A DNA stretch of 48,840 nt from Candidatus Giovannonibacteria bacterium RIFCSPLOWO2_02_FULL_45_28 (GTDB lineage: Bacteria > Patescibacteriota > Minisyncoccia > UBA11713 > 2-01-FULL-45-33), in NCBI GenBank assembly GCA_001780725.1, contig MFIM01000027.1, positions 1-48,840 of the forward strand. The letters run 5' to 3'. Below, one piece after another: positions 16,971 through 47,338 of the stretch. Every line of letters starts with the position of its first letter. Position 1 is the first letter of the stretch. Under the pieces are notes generated by a model. The model did no database searches, was not told the DNA's origin, and saw only the letters and a program-made list of their open reading frames with translations. Position numbers and translations under genes: made by a program.

Positions 16971-17868
16971 TTTCCAAATAATTTCCGTCATCTAAAACAA
17001 TAATCTCGTCGGGCTCCAAAGATATGATATTTGGTTGTTTCCCTTGATAAAGCGGGAAAGCGTTCTGCCTGCCGGAAGAATCCATCTCCAGCGCCCAAAC
17101 ACCGTTTGACATAGTTGCAATCAGCCAATCGGGCCAATCTGGATAGGAGAAAACCTGGCGAATCGGGCCCATAAAATTGTTTGGGCCTACTTGCAAAAAT
17201 GGGTTTTTTTGCCACTCCGGCATTTTTTTTGCGTCCTCAAACCAAAAGGTATCAATAACGCCGGAATCCCAATAAATCACCCGTGAGAATGTTTCATCAA
17301 AAACGCTTTCTTTTTTGCTTCGTAAAATTTCCGCGGTTGTCGTACCAAAAATTTTGTAAATATCAAAAAGTTCTTTATTTCTATAAAATTTCTTGTCATC
17401 CCCCAAAATTATAAAATCCTCCGTTTTGGGGATTGCCCAAAATTTTTTTATTGACGCGTATGGGGGCTTATTTTTTTTTATCGGCGGGGTTGTGGTGCCT
17501 AAAATTTTGCCGTCAGGATTTTTCGGCACCAAAAGCGCCGAGCGTGCCGTAACAGTTTCCGACATTACCTCCAATTGTTTTTCCCAGTCCCAAAATCCTT
17601 CTTTTGTTACGGAAACTTTGTATGTTCCGGGCACCAAGTTTTTAATGAGTCCGCTTTTCCCCAAAAACGACGTGCGTTTATGTCTTGAGTCTATAAAAAT
17701 ATCAGCGCCCGTTTCGGAGGCTTGAATAAAAATTCCTCCGGTCTTTAAAATTTTGAAATCGCGCGAAATTCCGTAACCCAAACTGTAAAGAAGGATTGGA
17801 ACGGCGGCAATAAAAAAAAATGATATTGAAGCGTAGAAAAAGACGCGGCGTTTAGCTTTAGTCAGCAT
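16954..17868 (-). CDS. PEGA-domain membrane protein
   Basis: N-terminal TM; GIFIQASETGADIFIDSRHKRTSFLGKSGLIKNLVPGTYKVSVTKEGFWDWEKQLEV. Confidence 0.7.
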   Translation of the reverse strand: MLTKAKRRVFFYASISFFFIAAVPILLYSLGYGISRDFKILKTGGIFIQASETGADIFIDSRHKRTSFLGKSGLIKNLVPGTYKVSVTKEGFWDWEKQLEVMSETVTARSALLVPKNPDGKILGTTTPPIKKNKPPYASIKKFWAIPKTEDFIILGDDKKFYRNKELFDIYKIFGTTTAEILRSKKESVFDETFSRVIYWDSGVIDTFWFEDAKKMPEWQKNPFLQVGPNNFMGPIRQVFSYPDWPDWLIATMSNGVWALEMDSSGRQNAFPLYQGKQPNIISLEPDEIIVLDDGNYLEITLPK

Positions 17869-17903
17869 TGATTTTAATCCCAATTTATCATACATTTGAA
17901 GCG

Positions 17904-19214
17904 ATGGCAAAATTTTTAGTGAACGGAGGCAGGGCGCTGGAAGGCGAGATTTCGGTTTCCGGCTCCAAAAACGCGTCTTTGCCGGCTCTGGCGGCTTCGC
18001 TGCTTTTTTCTGATGCGCCTCCGCTGTTTCAAAACCTTCCTGAAATTGAAGATATCAAAAGAATGAAAGAGCTCCTTCAAAGCCAAAAAGACGGGAGATT
18101 TGATTATGAAGTCGCAAAAAAAATCCGCGCTTCTATTTTGGCTGTCGGTCCCGCTCTTGCTAGATTCGGCCGCTCTTCTTTTCCGCATCCGGGAGGGTGT
18201 GTAATAGGCGCGCGCCCGATTGATGTTTTTTTTGATGGTTGGAAAGCAATGGGGGCAATTGTAGAAAAAACGCCGCCAAGCGGGAAGAAACCTGGTTTTT
18301 TGGCGGTCTCAAAACCAGGTTTCGAGGAGCTGGGCGGCGTTCACTCTATCCCAATTTACGAAATCCGTGCGCCTCAAGGACTTAGGGGCTGCGATTTTAC
18401 TTTTAGAGTGCCCAGCGTTACCGGAACAGAGGGTTTAATGATGACAGCTGTTTTGGCGCAAGGGCGGACGATTTTAAGAAACGTTGCCGAAGAGCCTGAA
18501 ATTCTAAGCTTGGCCGATTGGCTTAATAAAAATGGCGCAAAGATCGGCGGAGCGGGCACGCACACCATAACTATTGAAGGCCGCGGCGGAAAGCTGCTTT
18601 CCGGACAAGTTCCATTTTTGGCGCCGCCGGACCGCATAGAGGCAGGAAGTTTGGCAATTTTGGGGGCAATCGCGGCCAAAAAAATGACTATTAAAAATTT
18701 TCCTGAAAATGAACTTACGGCTCTGCTTGGGGTTTTAAAAACCGCAAGAGCTGAATTTGAAATAACGCATCATGACCACTCGCTATTCCCATCCATTACC
18801 TTAAAGCGAGCAACGAAGTTGCGAGCGGTTAATGTTCAAACAAAAGAATATCCCGGATTTGCCACGGATTTGCAAGCGCCGTATACCGTTCTTGCAACGC
18901 AGGCCGAAGGCGTGAGCATGATACACGAAACTATTTTTGAGGGGCGCCTAAATTATGTGGAAGATTTGAATAAAATTGGAGCGCGGATTAACCTTTGCGA
19001 TCCGCACCGCGCAATAGTGCACGGACCCTCTAATTTAACAGGATGGAATCTTGAGGGGCCGGATATCAGGGCGGGGCTTGCGTTTTTGATAGCCGCACTC
19101 GTAGCCAGAGGAGAATCTCAAATCGGCAATATTTATCAAATTGACCGCGGCCACGAAAAAATAGACGCACGCCTCCGCGCGCTAGGCGCGGATATTAAGA
19201 GGATGGAAGCTTGA
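17904..19214 (+). CDS. murA: UDP-N-acetylglucosamine 1-carboxyvinyltransferase
   Basis: MAKFLVNGGRALEGEISVSGSKNASLPALAASLL; PGGCVIGARPIDVF; EYPGFATDLQAPY; start moved from 17868. Confidence 0.93.
   Translation: MAKFLVNGGRALEGEISVSGSKNASLPALAASLLFSDAPPLFQNLPEIEDIKRMKELLQSQKDGRFDYEVAKKIRASILAVGPALARFGRSSFPHPGGCVIGARPIDVFFDGWKAMGAIVEKTPPSGKKPGFLAVSKPGFEELGGVHSIPIYEIRAPQGLRGCDFTFRVPSVTGTEGLMMTAVLAQGRTILRNVAEEPEILSLADWLNKNGAKIGGAGTHTITIEGRGGKLLSGQVPFLAPPDRIEAGSLAILGAIAAKKMTIKNFPENELTALLGVLKTARAEFEITHHDHSLFPSITLKRATKLRAVNVQTKEYPGFATDLQAPYTVLATQAEGVSMIHETIFEGRLNYVEDLNKIGARINLCDPHRAIVHGPSNLTGWNLEGPDIRAGLAFLIAALVARGESQIGNIYQIDRGHEKIDARLRALGADIKRMEA
18269..18341. repeat. Composite palindromic element, copy D (inside murA)
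   Basis: AACGCCGCCAAG/CGGGAA/GAAACCTGGTTTT/TTGGCGGTCTC/AAAACCAGGTTTC/GAGGAG/CTGGGCGGCGTT. Confidence 0.9.
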
Positions 19215-34566: not shown

Positions 34567-34571
34567 CTATT

Positions 34572-34643
34572 GGCCTCTTCGTCTATCGGCTAGGACGCAG
34601 CCCTCTCAAGGCTGAAAGATGGGTTCGACTCCCATAGGGGCCG
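34572..34643 (+). tRNA. tRNA-Glu (CTC)
   Basis: GGCCTCTTCGTCTATCGGCTAGGACGCAGCCCTCTCAAGGCTGAAAGATGGGTTCGACTCCCATAGGGGCC. Confidence 0.9.
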
Positions 34644-34685
34644 AAAATAAAATAAACTGTATCAAGGTTTTATAATGTTTTATAA

Positions 34686-34752
34686 ACCGCTTCGCGGGAA
34701 AACATCCGATGTTTGAAGCACGCCAACATCGGATGTTGAAGAGCGGAGCGGT
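34686..34752. repeat. Composite palindromic element, copy E (intergenic)
   Basis: ACCGCTTCG/CGGGAA/AACATCCGATGTT/TGAAGCACGCC/AACATCGGATGTT/GAAGAG/CGGAGCGGT. Confidence 0.85.
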
Positions 34753-34817: not shown

Positions 34818-34856
34818 ATGGAGTTTATTCATCTTTCTTGCAAAAGCTTTCTATGA
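34818..34856 (+). CDS. candidate 12-codon leaderless leader ORF, ATGA-coupled to the giant gene
   Basis: TATACT (34805-34810)-7-ATG; MEFIHLSCKSFL*; TGA overlaps ATG 34853. Confidence 0.45.
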   Translation: MEFIHLSCKSFL

Positions 34857-37800
34857 AATATATGAAAGAAAAGTATCTTTCAGCATCAGAAGCCGCGCGC
34901 TTATGTAATTATCATCGTATTTATGTTGGGCAGCTTTGCCGCGGAGGAAAAATTGATTGTAAAAAATTTGGAACGGATTGGATGGTGTCTGAAGAGTCAA
35001 TTTTAAATTACAAAAAAGAACTCACCAGTAAAAACCTATCCCTTACCCCTTCCCAAGGAAGGGGAAAAAACAACACCCTCCCCTTTGGGGAGGGTGAGGG
35101 TTGGGTTACAGAAAAAAGCTCCTCCACTTTACAAGACATCTTTCACGCGCAAGATAAGCCTGATGACGTGTGGGACAGGGCGATTTTGGGCGAAAAAGAG
35201 AAAGAAGCTTTTTGGTTCCCGGAATTTTCTCTGAAGCAGTGGTCGCTGGGAGCAGTCTCTCTATCGTCAATACTAATTGCCGCGCTGATTTTTTATAACG
35301 CAGGCGCAATCAAAAATTCTATCGCGGACGCGGTTGAAAGTGTTAATGTCTCCGCGAAAAACTTCGTAACTAAAACATCGTCAATCCCTCTCCTTGCGAA
35401 GGAGAGGATGGGGAACGTGGTTGAGTTCACCTCCTTAATAAGGAGGAGTGGTGAAGGGGTAGTGGAGATTTTCAATAATTTTGGAAGTTCAGGCTTGGAA
35501 CTTGCGCAAAACGGCAAAGATTGGGTTTCGGAAACCGCATCTGCCGTCGCCGATGAAATTAAAAATGGCTCTGCTCTATTAAACAAAATCCCTGATGTGG
35601 TTGCGGATAATCTCATCTTCGTGGAAAAAAAGGCTCTTGTGGCTCTTTCACTGCCCAAATTTTCTCTTCCTTTTACTTTGGAAGATGTCCGGCTTTCGCT
35701 TTCTGACATTAAGATGCGGTTTTTCAATAATATTTTTGCCGCTCGCGACTACATCGTCTTTCTGGGTTTAGATATTAAAAAGGTGGCGCTAGATTTTGTA
35801 TCGTCGCCCTCGCCGTCAGGGAAAACACTCGGTGTTTTTGGGGATTCAACACCGAGTGTTGAGGAGGACGGCGAGCAAAAACCGTCGCCCCTCATTGTCA
35901 GTAAAAACCTACCCCTTACCCCTTCCCAAGGAAGGGGAAAAAACAACACCCTCCCTTTTGGGGAGGGTGAGGGTGGGGTTACAGAAAAAAGCCCCCCCTT
36001 TTTACAAGGGGAGGGTTTGGAGAGGTCAAGAGGTGTTGATGAATCTTCCATCATCTCCCGCGTCCTTTCTTCCATTAATATCACGCAGCGTTTTCAGGAA
36101 TTGGAAAACCGTCTCACTTCCAACCTCTCACTTCTCATCTCTAATATTGAAAAACGCATTCCACCCAACGTCCAAAATCCGGTTGTTTTTTTAACCGCGT
36201 CTGCACCCTCTCCTATAAGAAATGATCCGCCGCAGCAGATTAGCGGAGTTTCCGCCGGCTTTGGAGATTTCTCGCAGGGGATTTCAACCGGAGGAAATCT
36301 TTCGGCGACCGGAAATGTCACTTTGGGCGACGACGCGAAAACCGCGAGCATTGCTTCAAGCGTTTGGGATATTACTTCTGCCGGCGCGGCTTCCGGATTT
36401 ATATCTCTCTCTACAAACTCTCTTTCCGCGTCCACATTTAATTTGTCGGGGCTTTTAACAACCGGTGGATTTATTGCAACAGCCTCTTCAACAATAATTG
36501 GGGATTTAACTTTTCAAAATGCAACTTCTACCGGATATTTATCAGTGACCGGTTCAGCAACTTCAACATTTGCCAACGGAATAAAACTTACAGGAGGATG
36601 TTTTCTTTTGCTTGACGGCACTTGCGCCGGGACAGGAAGCGGCTCTGGTTTGACTGGCACGATTGGGCAAGTCGCGTACTTCTCGGGGACCGACAGTGCG
36701 GTCGGCACCTCCACCATCGTCATTTCAACGAGCGGCAATGTCGGCATCGGGACAGCGGCGCCGCAAACCATTCTTGATGTCTTGGGTACCGCCTCATCCA
36801 CTCTCTATTTAGCAAATATTGGTTCTGAATCTGCCCCAGCGTACTCATTCGCGGGCGGTTCAAATGGGGGGTTCTTTCAAAATCCATCAGGTACTATCGG
36901 AATATCAACAGGAGGGGCTGCGAGGGTAACGTTCGCGAGTAGCGGACTATCTATGGGCGTGAATGGTACTGCGGCGAGTCCCAGCATCGCTTGGAGTGCA
37001 GACGGTGATACTGGTATCTTCCGCGATAGTTCTGACCAACTTGCTTTCACTGCCGGCGGCATTGAGGCGCTAAGATTTATTGAGGTAAATAGTATAGTCA
37101 CTTCGTATTTTAATGCAGGCAACGTCGGCATCGGGACGACTTCGCCTTCGGCTACGCTCAGCGTAGCTGGCAACACTTATCTTGATTCCAATTTAATTAC
37201 TTATTCTTCCTCAACCGCCGCGAATCTTACCATTTCATACCAGCGCGCGGCGACGACGACGATTCCACAAAGTATAAATGCTTTTGCCATCGGAACCACC
37301 ACCGGACCAACCGCGCCAATTCTTTCAATTGATGGTCTAAATGGAAGAGTCGGCATCGGGACGGCAAATCCTTTAGTGCCGTTGCAATTGAATGGCAATA
37401 TATTCCATATAAATAATGATAATGCCGAAATTGGATTAGGATCTTCGAGATCGTTCAATAGGCTCCTAGTAGATAGTGATACTAATGTTGGATTGGTAGG
37501 CAAGAAAAATGTGTGGATAGGCATTGACTCAGATAATAGCGGCACGGACGCCACCTTTGGTATAGTTGCCAATGATGATTGGTTGGGTGGGAGCGAAACG
37601 CCGTTGTTTACTGTTACAGAGGCTGGCTCCGTCGGTATCGGGACGACGAGTCCCGCAAGTTTGCTCTCCGTGGCTGGCAACACTTATCTTGATTCCAATT
37701 TAATTACTTATTCTTCCTCAACCGCCGCGAATCTTACCATTTCATACCAGCGCGCGGCGACGACGACGATTCCACAAAGTATAAATGCTTTTGCCATCGG

Positions 37801-40800
37801 AACCACCACCGGACCAACCGCGCCAATTCTTTCAATTGATGGTCTAAATGGAAGAGTCGGCATCGGGACGGCAAATCCTTTAGTGCCGTTGCAATTGAAT
37901 GGCAATATATTCCATATAAATAATGATAATGCCGAAATTGGATTAGGATCTTCGAGATCGTTCAATAGGCTCCTAGTAGATAGTGATACTAATGTTGGAT
38001 TGGTAGGCAAGAAAAATGTGTGGATAGGCATTGACTCAGATAATAGCGGCACGGACGCCACCTTTGGTATAGTTGCCAATGATGATTGGTTGGGTGGGAG
38101 CGAAACGCCGTTGTTTACTGTTACAGAGGCTGGCTCCGTCGGTATCGGGACGACGAGTCCCGCAAGTTTGCTCTCCGTGGCTGGCAACACTTATCTTGAT
38201 TCCAATTTAATTACTTATTCTTCCTCAACCGCCGCGAATCTTACCATTTCATACCAGCGCGCGGCGACGACGACGATTCCACAAAGTAGAAATGCTTTTG
38301 CCATCGGAACCACCACCGGACTAACCGCTCCAATTTTTTCAATTGATGGTCTAAATGGAAGAGTCGGCATCGGGACGGCGGCGCCAAGCGCTACTCTTAC
38401 CGTGCTTGGATCAGGCACCCTGCTTTCGCTCCAAAGTGGTGGTGGGGTGGCGTTTAGCGTTTCTACTTCTCAAATGCTTTTTGATGCTGATAATCAGCCT
38501 TTTGCTATTGGTGAAAATGCAGATTATTCACTTGGACATAATTCAACCACAGATAATTTTGAGATAGTTGATGGAAGTACAATAGGAACAAACGTTAGGA
38601 TGGTTATAAGTAGCTCCGGCAACGTCGGCATCGGGACGACGAGTCCGGCTGCCACACTCTCCGTAACTGGCAACACTTATCTAGATTCAAACTTAATTAC
38701 TTATTCTTCCTCAACCGCCGCGAATCTTACCATTTCATACCAGCGCGCGGCGACGACGACGATTCCCAATCTCGCCATCAACGCCTGGAGCATTGCCACC
38801 TCAACTTCCAATACTCCCGTCTTTACCATCTCTTCCACTTCTTCTCCCTTCGGACTGATAGGCATAGGCACCTCTTCTCCTTCTTACACCCTCTCAATTG
38901 CAGGAAACGAATACCTTACAGGAGGACTTGGAGTCGGCAAAGCCACCACAACCGCAGGAGTCATTGAATCTTCGGGACTCATACTCTCCGGAGGAGTCTT
39001 TGCGGCTTTGGGAACTGCAACCTCAACATTCTCGGGAGATATCAATCTTCCTACAGGCAAGTGCTACCAGGTGAATGGAACTTGCACTCTCATGAGCGCC
39101 ATTACATCTCTTAACGGACTTACTGGAACAACACAGACATTTGCTTCAAACGACTTAATTAGCATTGTTTCTCCCGCCGCCGGCACTGTACACAACTTCT
39201 ACGGCTCAACAACTCCCACTTTTGGATGGCTGCATGCAACGTCTTCAACAGCTTCGTTCTTTACAGGAGCTTTGGGTATCGGGACGACGAGTCCGTGGGG
39301 ATTGCTTTCAGTAAATCCAGATGGCATCTCCGGCCCCGCTTTCGTAGTCGGGTCTTCAACAGCAACTAATTTCATAGTAACCAACGGCGGCAACGTCGGC
39401 ATCGGGACGGCGGCACCTACTGCCGGACTCATGTTAGATATTAGGGGCGATATGTCTGTGAACAATGATGGTTACTATGCTTTTGCCGAAGATAAGGTTA
39501 ACTGGAGCATACACGGAAGGACCACTGACTCTACGACCATGTTAGGTTCGGCACTCAAAACAACGATTATCCCCGGTTCCGGTACGACCGAAGGCTTTGC
39601 TATTGCTGGTGCTGGCCTAGCGAGTTCTTTTGAAGCAAGAAACGATGGACAAATATACATGAAAGGCAACGTCGGCATCGGGACGACGAGTCCGGCTACC
39701 ACACTCTCCGTAGCAGGAAACACTTATTTAGATTCCAATTTAATTACTTATTCTTCCTCAACCGCTGCGAATCTTACCGTTTCCTACCAAAGAGCGGCGA
39801 CGACGACGATTCCAATAAATACCGTCTATGCTTGGTCTATCGCGACCTCCACCACCGCATCTCCTCTTTTTACTTTCAATACGAACGGGCCCTACGCGAC
39901 TACTTCCATAAATGGCGGATTTGTTTTGAATAACGGCGCAGTTAATTACGATTCATCAAGCGGCATAATTTCCGCGGATTCAATTCAGACCGGGCCCATG
40001 GGTTTTGACACCGACGCCGGAATTGTTTCCTGGATTGACATGCCAAGCTCTACCACCACCGCAAATATTGTAAACAGCTATTCCGCTATGCTGGATAGCA
40101 CAGCAATCCTCACGATTTACGGCACAACCACAACTTCAGGAAATATAACTTACGGTCATGTCGGCATCGGGACGACCAGCCCAACCATTGCTCGCCTTTC
40201 CGTTCAAGGCAACATCGCCGCTTTTGGCTGCATACGCTCCGCCACTTCTACTTATTCCATCGGGCCCGCAAGTTGTGTAGACATCGCCGAAACATACCCT
40301 ATATCGGAAGATGCCTCGGCTGGGGACATTATGATGGTAGGTCCGGATGGAAAATTAAAAAAAGCCACGGATCGCGCGGGGCTAATTGGCGTTGTGTCAA
40401 GCGAGCCGGCAATATTATTGGAAGGGCCTGTGGCGTTTTTCGGAAGCCAAATTAACAATCAAACACTAGAGCATAAAACTGGCTCTATGGCGCCCATTGC
40501 TTTAGCCGGAAGGGTCCCTGTAAAAGTTTCGGCAGAAGGCGGCCCAATAAAACCGGGAGATAGAATAACAATTTCTTCGGCGCCCGGAGTCGGAATGAAA
40601 GCTACCACCTCCGGCCAGACCGTTGGGATCGCTTTAGAGCCGTACGACAGCGGAGAAATCGGTAAAATAATTGTTTTTATAAATCTTGGTTATTCAAAAC
40701 TGGATTCAGGATTATCTCAAGCGCTGGATGGAAATGGGGGATTAATTGTTGATCAGGCAAGCGGCAAAATGAAATCTTCTTACACTTTGGATATGGACAA

Positions 40801-41377
40801 TAACGACATTATAAACGCGCGGAAAATTCTCTCTGCCTCCGGGCTTTGGTCAATTGACGAGAACGGGAAGCTAATCGTTCAGGAAATTGAAACCAAAAAA
40901 CTCACTGTAACAGGACAGCAGGGGATTACTATTTACGACCGCGTTACAGGACAACCCGTTTGTGTTTATTCCGAAAACGGAGTTTTGAAGTCGGAAGATG
41001 GGGAGTGTTGGGCCGCCGAAACTGGCGGGAAAACATCCGATGTTTCCGCCGAAGGCGGATCCGCCTCTGGCGGAGAGGAGCTAGTTTCGGATACTGACCC
41101 TCCAACAATCTCAATTTTGGGCAACAATCCTTCCGCCATTAATGTAGGCGGAACCTATTCTGACATGGGGGTCACGGTAACTGATAATATTGATCAAAAT
41201 TTGGGATACACGGCTTCTTTAGATGGCGGGCTTGAACTTTTGCAGGGAGATGGACTTCAAATTGATACCTCAAAGGCTGGCGAACATATAATTATTTACA
41301 CGGCAGCGGATTCGGCAGGGAATACCGCTTCGTCCACAAGAACAGTAGAAGTAGTAGAAATTTATGGAAATCAGTAG
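34853..41377 (+). CDS. giant tail-fibre-like surface protein with N-terminal excisionase-like HTH, TM helix, GNVGIGTTSP repeats and C-terminal Ig-like domain
   Basis: YLSASEAARLCNYHRIYVGQLCRGGKIDCKKFGTDWMVSEESI; about a dozen VGIGT(T/A) repeats; DPPTISILGNNPSAINVGGTYSDMGVTVTDNID. Confidence 0.85.
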   Translation: MKYMKEKYLSASEAARLCNYHRIYVGQLCRGGKIDCKKFGTDWMVSEESILNYKKELTSKNLSLTPSQGRGKNNTLPFGEGEGWVTEKSSSTLQDIFHAQDKPDDVWDRAILGEKEKEAFWFPEFSLKQWSLGAVSLSSILIAALIFYNAGAIKNSIADAVESVNVSAKNFVTKTSSIPLLAKERMGNVVEFTSLIRRSGEGVVEIFNNFGSSGLELAQNGKDWVSETASAVADEIKNGSALLNKIPDVVADNLIFVEKKALVALSLPKFSLPFTLEDVRLSLSDIKMRFFNNIFAARDYIVFLGLDIKKVALDFVSSPSPSGKTLGVFGDSTPSVEEDGEQKPSPLIVSKNLPLTPSQGRGKNNTLPFGEGEGGVTEKSPPFLQGEGLERSRGVDESSIISRVLSSINITQRFQELENRLTSNLSLLISNIEKRIPPNVQNPVVFLTASAPSPIRNDPPQQISGVSAGFGDFSQGISTGGNLSATGNVTLGDDAKTASIASSVWDITSAGAASGFISLSTNSLSASTFNLSGLLTTGGFIATASSTIIGDLTFQNATSTGYLSVTGSATSTFANGIKLTGGCFLLLDGTCAGTGSGSGLTGTIGQVAYFSGTDSAVGTSTIVISTSGNVGIGTAAPQTILDVLGTASSTLYLANIGSESAPAYSFAGGSNGGFFQNPSGTIGISTGGAARVTFASSGLSMGVNGTAASPSIAWSADGDTGIFRDSSDQLAFTAGGIEALRFIEVNSIVTSYFNAGNVGIGTTSPSATLSVAGNTYLDSNLITYSSSTAANLTISYQRAATTTIPQSINAFAIGTTTGPTAPILSIDGLNGRVGIGTANPLVPLQLNGNIFHINNDNAEIGLGSSRSFNRLLVDSDTNVGLVGKKNVWIGIDSDNSGTDATFGIVANDDWLGGSETPLFTVTEAGSVGIGTTSPASLLSVAGNTYLDSNLITYSSSTAANLTISYQRAATTTIPQSINAFAIGTTTGPTAPILSIDGLNGRVGIGTANPLVPLQLNGNIFHINNDNAEIGLGSSRSFNRLLVDSDTNVGLVGKKNVWIGIDSDNSGTDATFGIVANDDWLGGSETPLFTVTEAGSVGIGTTSPASLLSVAGNTYLDSNLITYSSSTAANLTISYQRAATTTIPQSRNAFAIGTTTGLTAPIFSIDGLNGRVGIGTAAPSATLTVLGSGTLLSLQSGGGVAFSVSTSQMLFDADNQPFAIGENADYSLGHNSTTDNFEIVDGSTIGTNVRMVISSSGNVGIGTTSPAATLSVTGNTYLDSNLITYSSSTAANLTISYQRAATTTIPNLAINAWSIATSTSNTPVFTISSTSSPFGLIGIGTSSPSYTLSIAGNEYLTGGLGVGKATTTAGVIESSGLILSGGVFAALGTATSTFSGDINLPTGKCYQVNGTCTLMSAITSLNGLTGTTQTFASNDLISIVSPAAGTVHNFYGSTTPTFGWLHATSSTASFFTGALGIGTTSPWGLLSVNPDGISGPAFVVGSSTATNFIVTNGGNVGIGTAAPTAGLMLDIRGDMSVNNDGYYAFAEDKVNWSIHGRTTDSTTMLGSALKTTIIPGSGTTEGFAIAGAGLASSFEARNDGQIYMKGNVGIGTTSPATTLSVAGNTYLDSNLITYSSSTAANLTVSYQRAATTTIPINTVYAWSIATSTTASPLFTFNTNGPYATTSINGGFVLNNGAVNYDSSSGIISADSIQTGPMGFDTDAGIVSWIDMPSSTTTANIVNSYSAMLDSTAILTIYGTTTTSGNITYGHVGIGTTSPTIARLSVQGNIAAFGCIRSATSTYSIGPASCVDIAETYPISEDASAGDIMMVGPDGKLKKATDRAGLIGVVSSEPAILLEGPVAFFGSQINNQTLEHKTGSMAPIALAGRVPVKVSAEGGPIKPGDRITISSAPGVGMKATTSGQTVGIALEPYDSGEIGKIIVFINLGYSKLDSGLSQALDGNGGLIVDQASGKMKSSYTLDMDNNDIINARKILSASGLWSIDENGKLIVQEIETKKLTVTGQQGITIYDRVTGQPVCVYSENGVLKSEDGECWAAETGGKTSDVSAEGGSASGGEELVSDTDPPTISILGNNPSAINVGGTYSDMGVTVTDNIDQNLGYTASLDGGLELLQGDGLQIDTSKAGEHIIIYTAADSAGNTASSTRTVEVVEIYGNQ
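35809..35875. repeat. Composite palindromic element, copy A (inside giant CDS)
   Basis: CTCGCCGTC/AGGGAA/AACACTCGGTGTT/TTTGGGGATTC/AACACCGAGTGTT/GAGGAG/GACGGCGAG. Confidence 0.9.
37167..38180 (+). repeat. ~507-bp in-frame tandem duplication, two apparently identical units plus a diverged partial third
   Basis: Text from GGCAACACTTATCTTGATTCC recurs at +507; opposite-strand ORFs 37201-37683 and 37708-38190 are identical 160-aa translations offset by 507. Confidence 0.9.
41016..41090. repeat. Composite palindromic element, copy F (chimeric interior)
   Basis: CCGAAACTGG/CGGGAA/AACATCCGATGTT/TCCGCCGAAGGCGGA/TCCGCCTCTGGCGGA/GAGGAG/CTAGTTTCGG. Confidence 0.8.
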
Positions 41378-41993
41378 AAACTTATGGAAATTGATTTTGA
41401 TTGCGGCGCTGATTTTGGGTGCGGCGAGTTTCTATAAGTTTCAATTTATTTCCACAAGTTTCAATGATTCCAATGGCTCTCAACCAGTTTCAACCAATTT
41501 CAACGAATATCGCAACGCAGATTTCAAATTTTCTTTTCAGTATCCTAAAAACCTAACTCTCCAGGAATTTGATGATGAAAGGGGACATGTGATTTTGTTT
41601 GAGGCGAGCGGGAAAACATCCGATGTTGAATCCCCAAAAACATCGGATGTTGAGGAGCTCGCCGGCTTCCAAATTTTCATAGCTCCTTTCGACGAAGAAG
41701 GCCCAATAACTCCCGAACGCATAAAAAAAGACTTGCTTAATATTGTCGTGGAAAATCCAACTCCGACAAAAGTCGGCCCTTCGACAGGCTCAGGGCAAGC
41801 TGACGCTTTGAGTTTTGTCGGAGAAGGGGACCCGCCTACCGGCGAGGCAGGCGGCTTTAAAACCGCCGAGGTCTGGTTTGTTTATCCCCCCGAACCCTAC
41901 CCCAACGGAAATTATCTTTATCAAGTCACCGCGAAGCTGGAGGACGCAACTTTAATAGAAGAGATTTTGAAAACATGGAGATTTAGCCGCTGA
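41364..41993 (+). CDS. membrane-anchored PsbP-like hypothetical protein interrupted by palindromic insertions
   Basis: N-terminal TM; NADFKFSFQYPKNLTLQEF...AEVWFVYPPEPYPNGNYLYQVTAKLEDATLIEEILKTWRF. Confidence 0.6.
   Translation: MEISRNLWKLILIAALILGAASFYKFQFISTSFNDSNGSQPVSTNFNEYRNADFKFSFQYPKNLTLQEFDDERGHVILFEASGKTSDVESPKTSDVEELAGFQIFIAPFDEEGPITPERIKKDLLNIVVENPTPTKVGPSTGSGQADALSFVGEGDPPTGEAGGFKTAEVWFVYPPEPYPNGNYLYQVTAKLEDATLIEEILKTWRFSR
41603..41663. repeat. Composite palindromic element, copy B
   Basis: GGCGAG/CGGGAA/AACATCCGATGTT/GAATCCCCAAA/AACATCGGATGTT/GAGGAG/CTCGCC. Confidence 0.9.
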
Positions 41994-46258: not shown

Positions 46259-47338
46259 ATGAAATTTGCGTTAAAAATCATATTTATATTTCTGATTTTT
46301 GTGGCCATTCTTATTTTACTTGCTCCGGCAAAACAGAAACTTTCTTACGGAGTCACTTTTTCGCAAAAATTTTCAGAAGAGTTTGGGTTTGAATCTGCAA
46401 ACGGTATGGCGGGTTGGAAGCGGAATTATCTCGCGCTTCTGGACGATTTGAAAGTTAAAGATTTGCGTCTCGTAGCATATTGGGATTTGGTAGAACCCGC
46501 CGAAAGCCAATTTAATTTTAAAGATTTGGATTGGCAAATTACCGAAGCTGAAAAACGCGGAGCAAAAATTATTTTAGTAGTAGGCAGAAAAGTGCCAAGA
46601 TGGCCGGAATGTCACATTCCATCATGGGCGCGCTTTTCAACGCCACCCGGGAAGAAGTCCGACTTCTTTGGGGTTTCGAAGTCCGACTTCGAGGAGGGCG
46701 GCGTTTTCCAGCGCGCCCAATTACTAAATTACATTAAAACAACCATAGAACACTACCGCTCCAACCCCGCTATCATTGCTTGGCAGGTTGAAAACGAACC
46801 CCTGTTTCCGTTCGGCGAGTGCGGCACAATTCCAGTTTCGCTTTTAAATCAGGAAATTAAATTGGTGAAATCGTTGAGCAATAAGCCGGTTATTTTAACC
46901 GATTCCGGCGAGTTGGGGTTCGCTTGGCCGTACCTTGCCGCAAAATCCGACATCTTCGGCACTACATTATATAGATATATAAACAACAGATTTTTAGGCG
47001 ATATCCGTTATTCGCTTATTCCGGCTTATTATTTTAGAATTAAAGCGCGGTGGGCTGGCAAGATTTTAGGGAAACAAATAATAATTTCTGAGCTGCAAGC
47101 CGAACCGTGGTCGCAAGTTTCCCTTGCCGAGACTTCTTTTGATGACCAAGCTAAAAGTATGAGTCCGGAAAAATTCAGAGAAATTATTGATTACGCCGAA
47201 CGAAGCGGTTTTCCTAAGGCCTATCTTTGGGGCGCGGAATGGTGGTATTGGATGAAAGAAAAACAAGGGAGGCCGGAGATGTGGGAAGCGGCACGGAGCG
47301 CAATTAATAACCCGCCTGCCGGACGGGCAGGTTTCTAA
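46259..47338 (+). CDS. glycoside-hydrolase-like (beta/alpha barrel) protein, membrane anchored
   Basis: N-terminal TM; LRLVAYWDLVEPAESQFNFKDLDWQI; IIAWQVENEPLFPFG; IISELQAEPW. Confidence 0.75.
   Translation: MKFALKIIFIFLIFVAILILLAPAKQKLSYGVTFSQKFSEEFGFESANGMAGWKRNYLALLDDLKVKDLRLVAYWDLVEPAESQFNFKDLDWQITEAEKRGAKIILVVGRKVPRWPECHIPSWARFSTPPGKKSDFFGVSKSDFEEGGVFQRAQLLNYIKTTIEHYRSNPAIIAWQVENEPLFPFGECGTIPVSLLNQEIKLVKSLSNKPVILTDSGELGFAWPYLAAKSDIFGTTLYRYINNRFLGDIRYSLIPAYYFRIKARWAGKILGKQIIISELQAEPWSQVSLAETSFDDQAKSMSPEKFREIIDYAERSGFPKAYLWGAEWWYWMKEKQGRPEMWEAARSAINNPPAGRAGF
46626..46718. repeat. Composite palindromic element, copy C (inside glycosidase CDS)
   Basis: 22-nt outer IR (17/22)/CGGGAA/GAAGTCCGACTTC/TTTGGGGTTTC/GAAGTCCGACTTC/GAGGAG/22-nt outer IR. 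Confidence 0.88.

Follow-up and report, generated by a model that had tools for sequence, protein, structure and literature searches.

A palindromic element is present in five copies (A, B, C, a murA copy, and an intergenic copy) in the window, i.e. the whole analysed stretch of 48,840 nucleotides, which is contig C27 of genome G000 (886,299 bases in 29 contigs). The element can be described as a coding palindrome, REPIN-like and in frame, and its known kind is that of the intragenic REP or Rickettsia-type coding palindromes. It is quite probably an inverted REP pair living as a parasite of RAYT transposases and placed in frame in genes, with an inner part of 37 nt that flips by template switching. 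Comparison of copies by sequence supports an inversion of the centre between the arms. As the original prediction had it, the centres of copies A and B run in opposite directions and are exact reverse complements (TTTGGGGATTC and GAATCCCCAAA), the outer borders GGGAA and GAGGAG are oriented alike in both cores, and copy C, with the centre TTTGGGGTTTC, shares the orientation of A. The murA and intergenic copies are not named in that prediction, nor does it link the arms to transposase REP hairpins or describe the element as protein-coding. The features of the window are given below.

17868..19214, + strand: murA with an in-frame insert (Pfam EPSP_synthase, E 3.9e-57; PDB MurA chains)
18262..18348, + strand: murA copy; core 18282-18329, arms GAAACCTGGTTTT, centre TTGGCGGTCTC
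34686..34752, + strand: intergenic copy; core 34696-34743, arms AACATCCGATGTT, centre TGAAGCACGCC
34838..41377, + strand: ORF that hosts copy A in frame (peptide GKTLGVFGDSTPSVEE); 2179 aa, C-terminal surface Ig-like domain
35809..35875, + strand: copy A, whole element with 9-bp outer arms (from sequence, genome pattern match, ORF frame, and hairpin fold)
35819-35866, + strand: core of copy A, GGGAA / AACACTCGGTGTT / TTTGGGGATTC / AACACCGAGTGTT / GAGGAG
35824..35836, + strand: left inner arm of copy A, AACACTCGGTGTT (REP core); the palindrome core found next to RAYT gene L187 and within it is its reverse complement
35837..35847, + strand: centre of copy A, TTTGGGGATTC, A orientation (from sequence)
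35848..35860, + strand: right inner arm of copy A, AACACCGAGTGTT; exact 13-mer found 3' of and inside RAYT gene L187
41364..41993, + strand: ORF that hosts copy B in frame; 209 aa
41603..41664, + strand: copy B; core 41610-41657, GGGAA / AACATCCGATGTT / GAATCCCCAAA / AACATCGGATGTT / GAGGAG
41615-41627 and 41639-41651, + strand: arms of copy B, around the centre 41628-41638 (GAATCCCCAAA, B orientation; from sequence and pattern match)
46259..47338, + strand: Glyco_hydro_42-like ORF that hosts copy C in frame
46625..46719, + strand: copy C, with long outer arms; core 46649-46696, centre TTTGGGGTTTC, A orientation

Structure of the element and its place in genes

The element consists, in order, of an outer arm, GGGAA, a 13-nt arm, an 11-nt centre, a 13-nt arm, GAGGAG, and an outer arm. 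The inner arms fall into few classes, namely AACACTCGGTGTT, AACATCCGATGTT, GAAGTCCGACTTC, and GAAACCTGGTTTT with minor variants, and each 13-nt arm is a small hairpin by itself, with a 5-bp stem and a 3-nt loop. Matches with exact borders number 15 in the 886-kb genome, versus 1 for a reversed control pattern, so that chance does not account for them. A set of 88 copies, mostly from Candidatus Giovannonibacteria genomes and drawn from among the matches listed in the pattern search, was defined by border matches of at least 8 of 11 and arm pairs of at least 10 of 13; chance border matches without paired arms were dropped, and each orthologous copy was counted separately, so that the copies are not independent. 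Twenty loci read later, from a covariance-model search, lie outside the 88. The element-bearing records (53 stretches) are mostly from Candidatus Giovannonibacteria, with three Nomurabacteria contigs and the rest titled Parcubacteria group or bacterium, and no exact-pattern copy was found in IMG/VR.

Folded as single-stranded DNA, copies A and B have z values of -8.4 and -8.0, respectively. Since both arms of copy C are one and the same 13-mer (12 of 13 pairs), this copy folds as two small hairpins, not as one long hairpin. In an alignment of 84 distinct rows, 97.2% of the cells of the long hairpin are paired and 471 are double-changed, against a shuffle mean of 159 and at most 71 in slid versions; pairing is conserved through double changes. 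The inner-arm cells, which form an inverted REP pair with a short spacer, are 99.5% paired in these rows, and a clover of three hairpins is 95.5% paired. As the pairs were defined on the same family, these values test consistency and do not choose between hairpin and clover.

Of the 88 copies, 87 are located in ORFs with a minimum length of 120 codons, so the element is not extragenic as REPINs are. One reading frame is used by 84 of these 87: phase 0 by 36 of the 38 copies that run with the gene, and phase 2 by 48 of the 49 that run against it. Stop codons are absent from the 48-nt core in 82, 38, and 61 of the 88 copies in forward phases 0, 1, and 2, and in 34, 81, and 88 in the corresponding reverse phases. 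Therefore, since other frames are stop-free too, the frame bias exceeds stop avoidance, with orthologous copies not being independent in this count. Hosts assigned by family search are murA, serS, uvrC, leuS, valS, gatB, uvrA, cysS, and a CCA tRNA nucleotidyltransferase-like gene, as well as ligA and a UvrD-like helicase in Nomurabacteria; the uvrB host was named through PDB matches. The alignment of MurA with 5bq2 is interrupted around the insert, from residue 133 to residue 167, and a Pfam search of the 209-aa ORF of copy B returned no family. The genomes that carry the element are very small, and inserts in them should be costly. The intergenic window copy, between tRNA-Glu (34571-34644) and ORF 34838, is the sole one of the 88 outside a long ORF. 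A copy in G002 with AACATCC arms and the gene-strand centre TTTTAGGATTT (L313, 2590-2650) lies at the very start or upstream of a gene, the start of which resembles ORF 34838; at this place the window has its sole intergenic copy.

Copies are also found within copies. A second border pair (at most 1 mismatch in 11 nt) is present in the flanks of 14 of 88 copies, versus 0.12 in shuffled flanks; most of these second pairs are oppositely oriented and lie 13/12 nt further out, and remnants of the older copies remain in frame, such as SGKTL-PG[...]G-SVEEE in gatB. New copies therefore insert into older ones, and this accounts for part of the variability of the outer arms.

Several other repeats are present nearby. 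Another palindromic repeat, in two 110-nt copies with 94% identity (window 35026-35135 and 35899-36008), is in frame in ORF 34838-41377 in both copies (peptide LTPSQGRGKNNTLPFGEGEG). Short hairpins are also found at window 35381-35470, and ~500-bp repeats (families D1-D3) at window 37118-39873 within the 2179-aa ORF. A longer, unrelated in-frame insert (KAEVFQDFSQRDGARLSNSP.GEYAGLEKS and relatives) is carried by uvrB of G003 (L130) and by leuS of G003, G007, and G009 (L304-L306). Since this insert is found in another genus at the uvrB and leuS positions used by the element, these sites accept several unrelated elements.

Centre orientation across copies and at orthologous sites

By Hamming distance to TTTGGGGATTC, the centres of the 88 copies are A-like in 54, B-like in 6, and unclassified in 28, the last including TTGGCAGTCTC, TTAACTTCTTC, and TGAAGCCCGCC. 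The six B-like copies represent five sites, as c3 and c78 are orthologous. The original prediction held that centres unrelated in either orientation in a larger set would speak against inversion; three exact reverse-complement pairs were found among the 88 copies, namely TTTGGGGATTC/GAATCCCCAAA, TTTGGGGTCCC/GGGACCCCAAA, and TTTGGAGATTC/GAATCTCCAAA. In the third pair, the B member differs from the first B type by a point change and lies at a site orthologous to one of that type, and B origins are therefore counted as at least two. An exact reverse-complement partner is present for 20 copies, against 0.004 in letter shuffles, and 5 of 88 centres are at most two bases from the reverse complement of TTTGGGGATTC, where letter shuffles give 0.015.

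In the covariance-model search, nine reverse-strand matches limited to positions 13-49 were found among the matches listed (four in G000, two each in G005 and G009, and one in G002), three of which were new; copy B is matched in this way, on the reverse strand and in the inner segment only. Such a confined match is the signature of a B copy. It is not exclusive at low scores, since two non-B copies (L289 and L290) give weak reverse-strand inner matches as well. A version with 5-nt centres, CCCGG or CCGGG, usual borders, and GAAGTC arms is present in G003 and G007 (L291-L300), and both centres are found at one UvrA position (L296 and L298; UvrA by likeness to the L084 host protein). These centres were considered as a case of frequent inversion and left uncounted, because they differ by one base and a point change explains them equally.

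The clearest contrast is that of leuS in G002 and G005, two genomes of one genus, where both centre orientations were found at an orthologous site, as the original prediction had proposed to look for. The insert has the same position, the same border direction (CTCCTC...TTCCC in G002 and TTCTTC...TTACC in G005), identical 13-nt inner arms, and near-identical outer arms. The centres, GAATCCCCAAA in G002 and TTTGAGGATTC in G005, are identical at 0 of 11 positions directly and at 10 of 11 when one is inverted. With position, borders, and both arms in common, this site supports the inversion; both spacer orientations at one site between unchanged arms are what distinguishes IR spacer inversion. 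The leuS of G000 has reversed borders, and that of G001 has no insert.

The inversion of the inner segment between the 13-bp arms is thus supported cleanly at one orthologous site, leuS, and less cleanly at two more, dsbA and valS; at sites other than leuS, the contrast between orthologues extends to arms or borders. In dsbA, G000 and G005 have opposite centres (inverted identity 11 of 11) and like borders, with arms that differ at two symmetric positions; the borders are flipped in G006, and G002 carries another element. In dsbA of G008 (L158), the left arm alone is swapped for a small palindrome, CCCCGCTTAGCGGGG, and the right arm is kept. In valS, G000 has GGGAA-arm-GGGACCCCAAA-arm-GAGGAG, and G002 and G005 have CTCCTT or CTCCTC borders; the centre direction in the gene and the arm class are common to the three, and the borders of G000 are swapped. 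The direction of the whole element varies between species at murA, uvrB, a cysteine desulfurase, a Mur ligase, and others. Either the inner and outer parts change direction independently, or they were inserted anew.

Some sites are inherited or empty. The G005 orthologue of copy B (L118/L234) is also in B orientation, with GAATCTCCAAA, so that the orientation is inherited at that site, and homologues of the host ORF in G003 and G007 are without the insert. The uvrB site is empty in G005, G006, and G007, and occupied in G000, G001, G002, G008, and G009. Insertion boundaries could not be taken from unnested copies, as the empty and occupied uvrB sites are too diverged to place the ends. The related species form a natural series in which spacers are inverted, elements flipped, and copies nested at fixed sites within essential enzymes.

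RAYT genes and competing explanations

Y1_Tnp genes number 8 in G000 and 2-8 in each of the family genomes (10 of 10), and at least one is present in 33 of the 55 genomes searched. An ORF with the NHxH motif was found by script in 53 of 56 RAYT loci, two of the 53 being short (39 and 50 codons). Palindromes lie ~40 nt before the start, just after the stop, or inside the gene in most loci, and their sequence varies from RAYT to RAYT; several of the 56 loci read have no such palindrome, e.g. L035, L037, L194, L195, and L201. In L036, L038, L040, L187, L206, L213, and others, the RAYT gene has a copy of its own palindrome inside the coding sequence, at sites that recur near +165 to +205 or +445, counted from the start.

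Exact 13-nt arm cores are present near both ends of, or inside, L039 (G000), L187 (G001), L203 (G003), L206 (G005), L223 (G008), and L229 (G004). The palindrome core is GAAGTC(C/G)GACTTC in L039, L203, L223, and L229, AACACCGAGTGTT in L187, AACATCCAATGTT in L206, and GAAACC(C/G)GGTTTC in L205 and L227, the GAAACC arm class matching at best in 12 of 13 positions. The arm class is that of the resident RAYT palindrome for GAAGTC in G000, G003, G004, and G008, for AACACCGAGTGTT in G001, and for AACATCCAATGTT in G005. For several classes, the sequences show the arms of the element and the palindromes of RAYT genes to be one and the same hairpin. No RAYT palindrome of the other arm classes of G000 was found among the RAYT genes of that genome; since the GAAGTC class alone has a resident palindrome there, RAYT and copy classes match in part only. 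The proposal that the copies of a genome follow the class of its resident RAYT agreed with G008, disagreed with G000 and G004, and was dropped. Arm matches outside the element number 20 in 121 kb of RAYT loci versus 19 in 845 kb of other loci, with overlapping loci counted repeatedly. The GGGAA/GAGGAG borders were not seen beside RAYT palindromes, and the feet of the element's hairpins are GGGAA, or CTCCTC on the other strand, not the GTAG/GTGG guide. In ileS of G001 (L307, near 1246), a single REP, CCAACACCGAGTGTTGG, identical to the palindrome of L187 in the same genome, is in frame where G009 (L282) has the doublet. A coding palindrome here has its hairpin core in common with the palindromes by which RAYT genes of these genomes are marked, which makes the candidate mover directly testable.

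We infer that a RAYT mobilises the element. It would spread through Giovannonibacteria genomes as a parasite of the REP-associated Y1 (RAYT) transposases and would survive in genes by being stop-free in one favoured frame and by landing at tolerant positions. The inner 37 nt would flip through a template switch of DNA polymerase from one 13-bp arm to the other, an event that would keep the arms, the length, and the reading frame; such a template switch (IR spacer inversion) is, by inference, the likeliest cause of the inversion, with recombination and transposase action as other candidates. The whole element may flip likewise via its outer arms, or a new insertion may replace the old one. It is improbable that the RAYTs themselves cut and rejoin both REP hairpins in living genes, with inner and outer parts flipping and copies entering old ones; if they did, the inserts in UvrB, LeuS, ValS, and MurA would vary within one population with the frame kept.

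One alternative, which is rather unlikely, suggests that the B orientation had one or two origins and was then carried further by transposition, and that the orthologous differences are repeated insertions at tolerant positions. GAATCCCCAAA is unchanged across several arm classes and genes, and with few B copies (6 of 88, two of them orthologous) a B lineage for GAATCCCCAAA may have spread. The same gene positions carry different arm classes and orientations by species, and even unrelated elements (dsbA L157, leuS L304-L306), which points to insertion hot spots. However, leuS of G002 and G005 keeps its borders, outer arms, and inner arms and differs in centre direction, and the second B type, GGGACCCCAAA, mirrors TTTGGGGTCCC, so that at least two B origins are needed.

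Other alternatives concern the mover. A Rickettsia-type coding palindrome with its own mover, for which RAYT genes with palindromes are merely targets, is doubtful. The in-frame position in unrelated core genes is a hallmark of the Rickettsia elements, according to the portion of PMC10969869 available, and palindromes are present both within and around the coding sequences of RAYT genes; against this, the palindromes recur ~40 nt ahead of the start and directly behind the stop, with each RAYT having its own palindrome, a layout described in the accessible part of PMC6006769. A structured RNA or attenuator, selected for its mRNA fold and immobile, would agree with the strong folds, the covarying stems, and the one window copy that follows a tRNA gene. 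It is nevertheless very improbable: the copies are oriented like the host gene in 38 cases and opposite to it in 49 (n = 87), orthologous sites are empty, and many unrelated genes carry copies. An Rfam search of the window returned tRNAs and no other family, and the structured RNA was rejected on this result together with both orientations in genes. The preferred reading remains that of an inverted REP pair, parasitic on RAYTs, with a flipping inner part.

Comparison with known systems

To our knowledge, the mover of the Rickettsia protein-coding palindromes is unsettled. Titles and abstract openings from the literature on coding palindromes, REP, or RAYT in candidate phyla or Giovannonibacteria, with few subscription journals among them, held no account of the element. 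In the available sections of PMC3116915, REPINs are RAYT-linked inverted REP doublets and are extragenic, with 14 of 1,067 16-mers overlapping genes in SBW25, and both hairpin and clover forms are discussed. RAYT genes with their own REP family, with palindromes around the gene, are a known layout in the part of PMC6006769 at hand. Like the element, REPINs and BIMEs, as far as the sources at hand describe them, have two inverted palindromic REPs around a spacer, a possible long hairpin or clover, REPs that match palindromes beside RAYT genes (in the element, for part of the arm classes), and compensatory stem changes. In contrast to REPINs, the element is intragenic, has GGGAA/GAGGAG borders in place of the GTAG guide, is present in tens and not hundreds of copies, and has outer arms, nesting, and an asymmetric spacer in both directions.

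In-frame position in unrelated core genes is named as the hallmark of Rickettsia palindromic elements in the portion seen of PMC10969869, where the first RPEs are described as ~150 bp, and the element shows such in-frame insertion in unrelated genes (84 of 87 copies in one frame). Intragenic REPs, including those in uvrA and uvrB, and the RPE-4 and RPE-6 cases of R. conorii are given in the accessible text of PMC3733652; these Rickettsia elements and the intragenic GTAG/CGTC REPs are, like the element, in-frame palindromic inserts in unrelated core genes including uvrA and uvrB. The element differs from the Rickettsia ones in its host lineage, in its sequence as compared by eye, and in a hairpin core with a link to the RAYT genes that these genomes carry. 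In IR spacer inversion, template switching inverts a spacer between short inverted repeats, as reported for yeast genes in the available part of PMC8604942; the inverted spacer and the homogenised arms between short inverted repeats are common to both systems, whereas here, by comparison with that same part, they lie inside a repeated mobile element.
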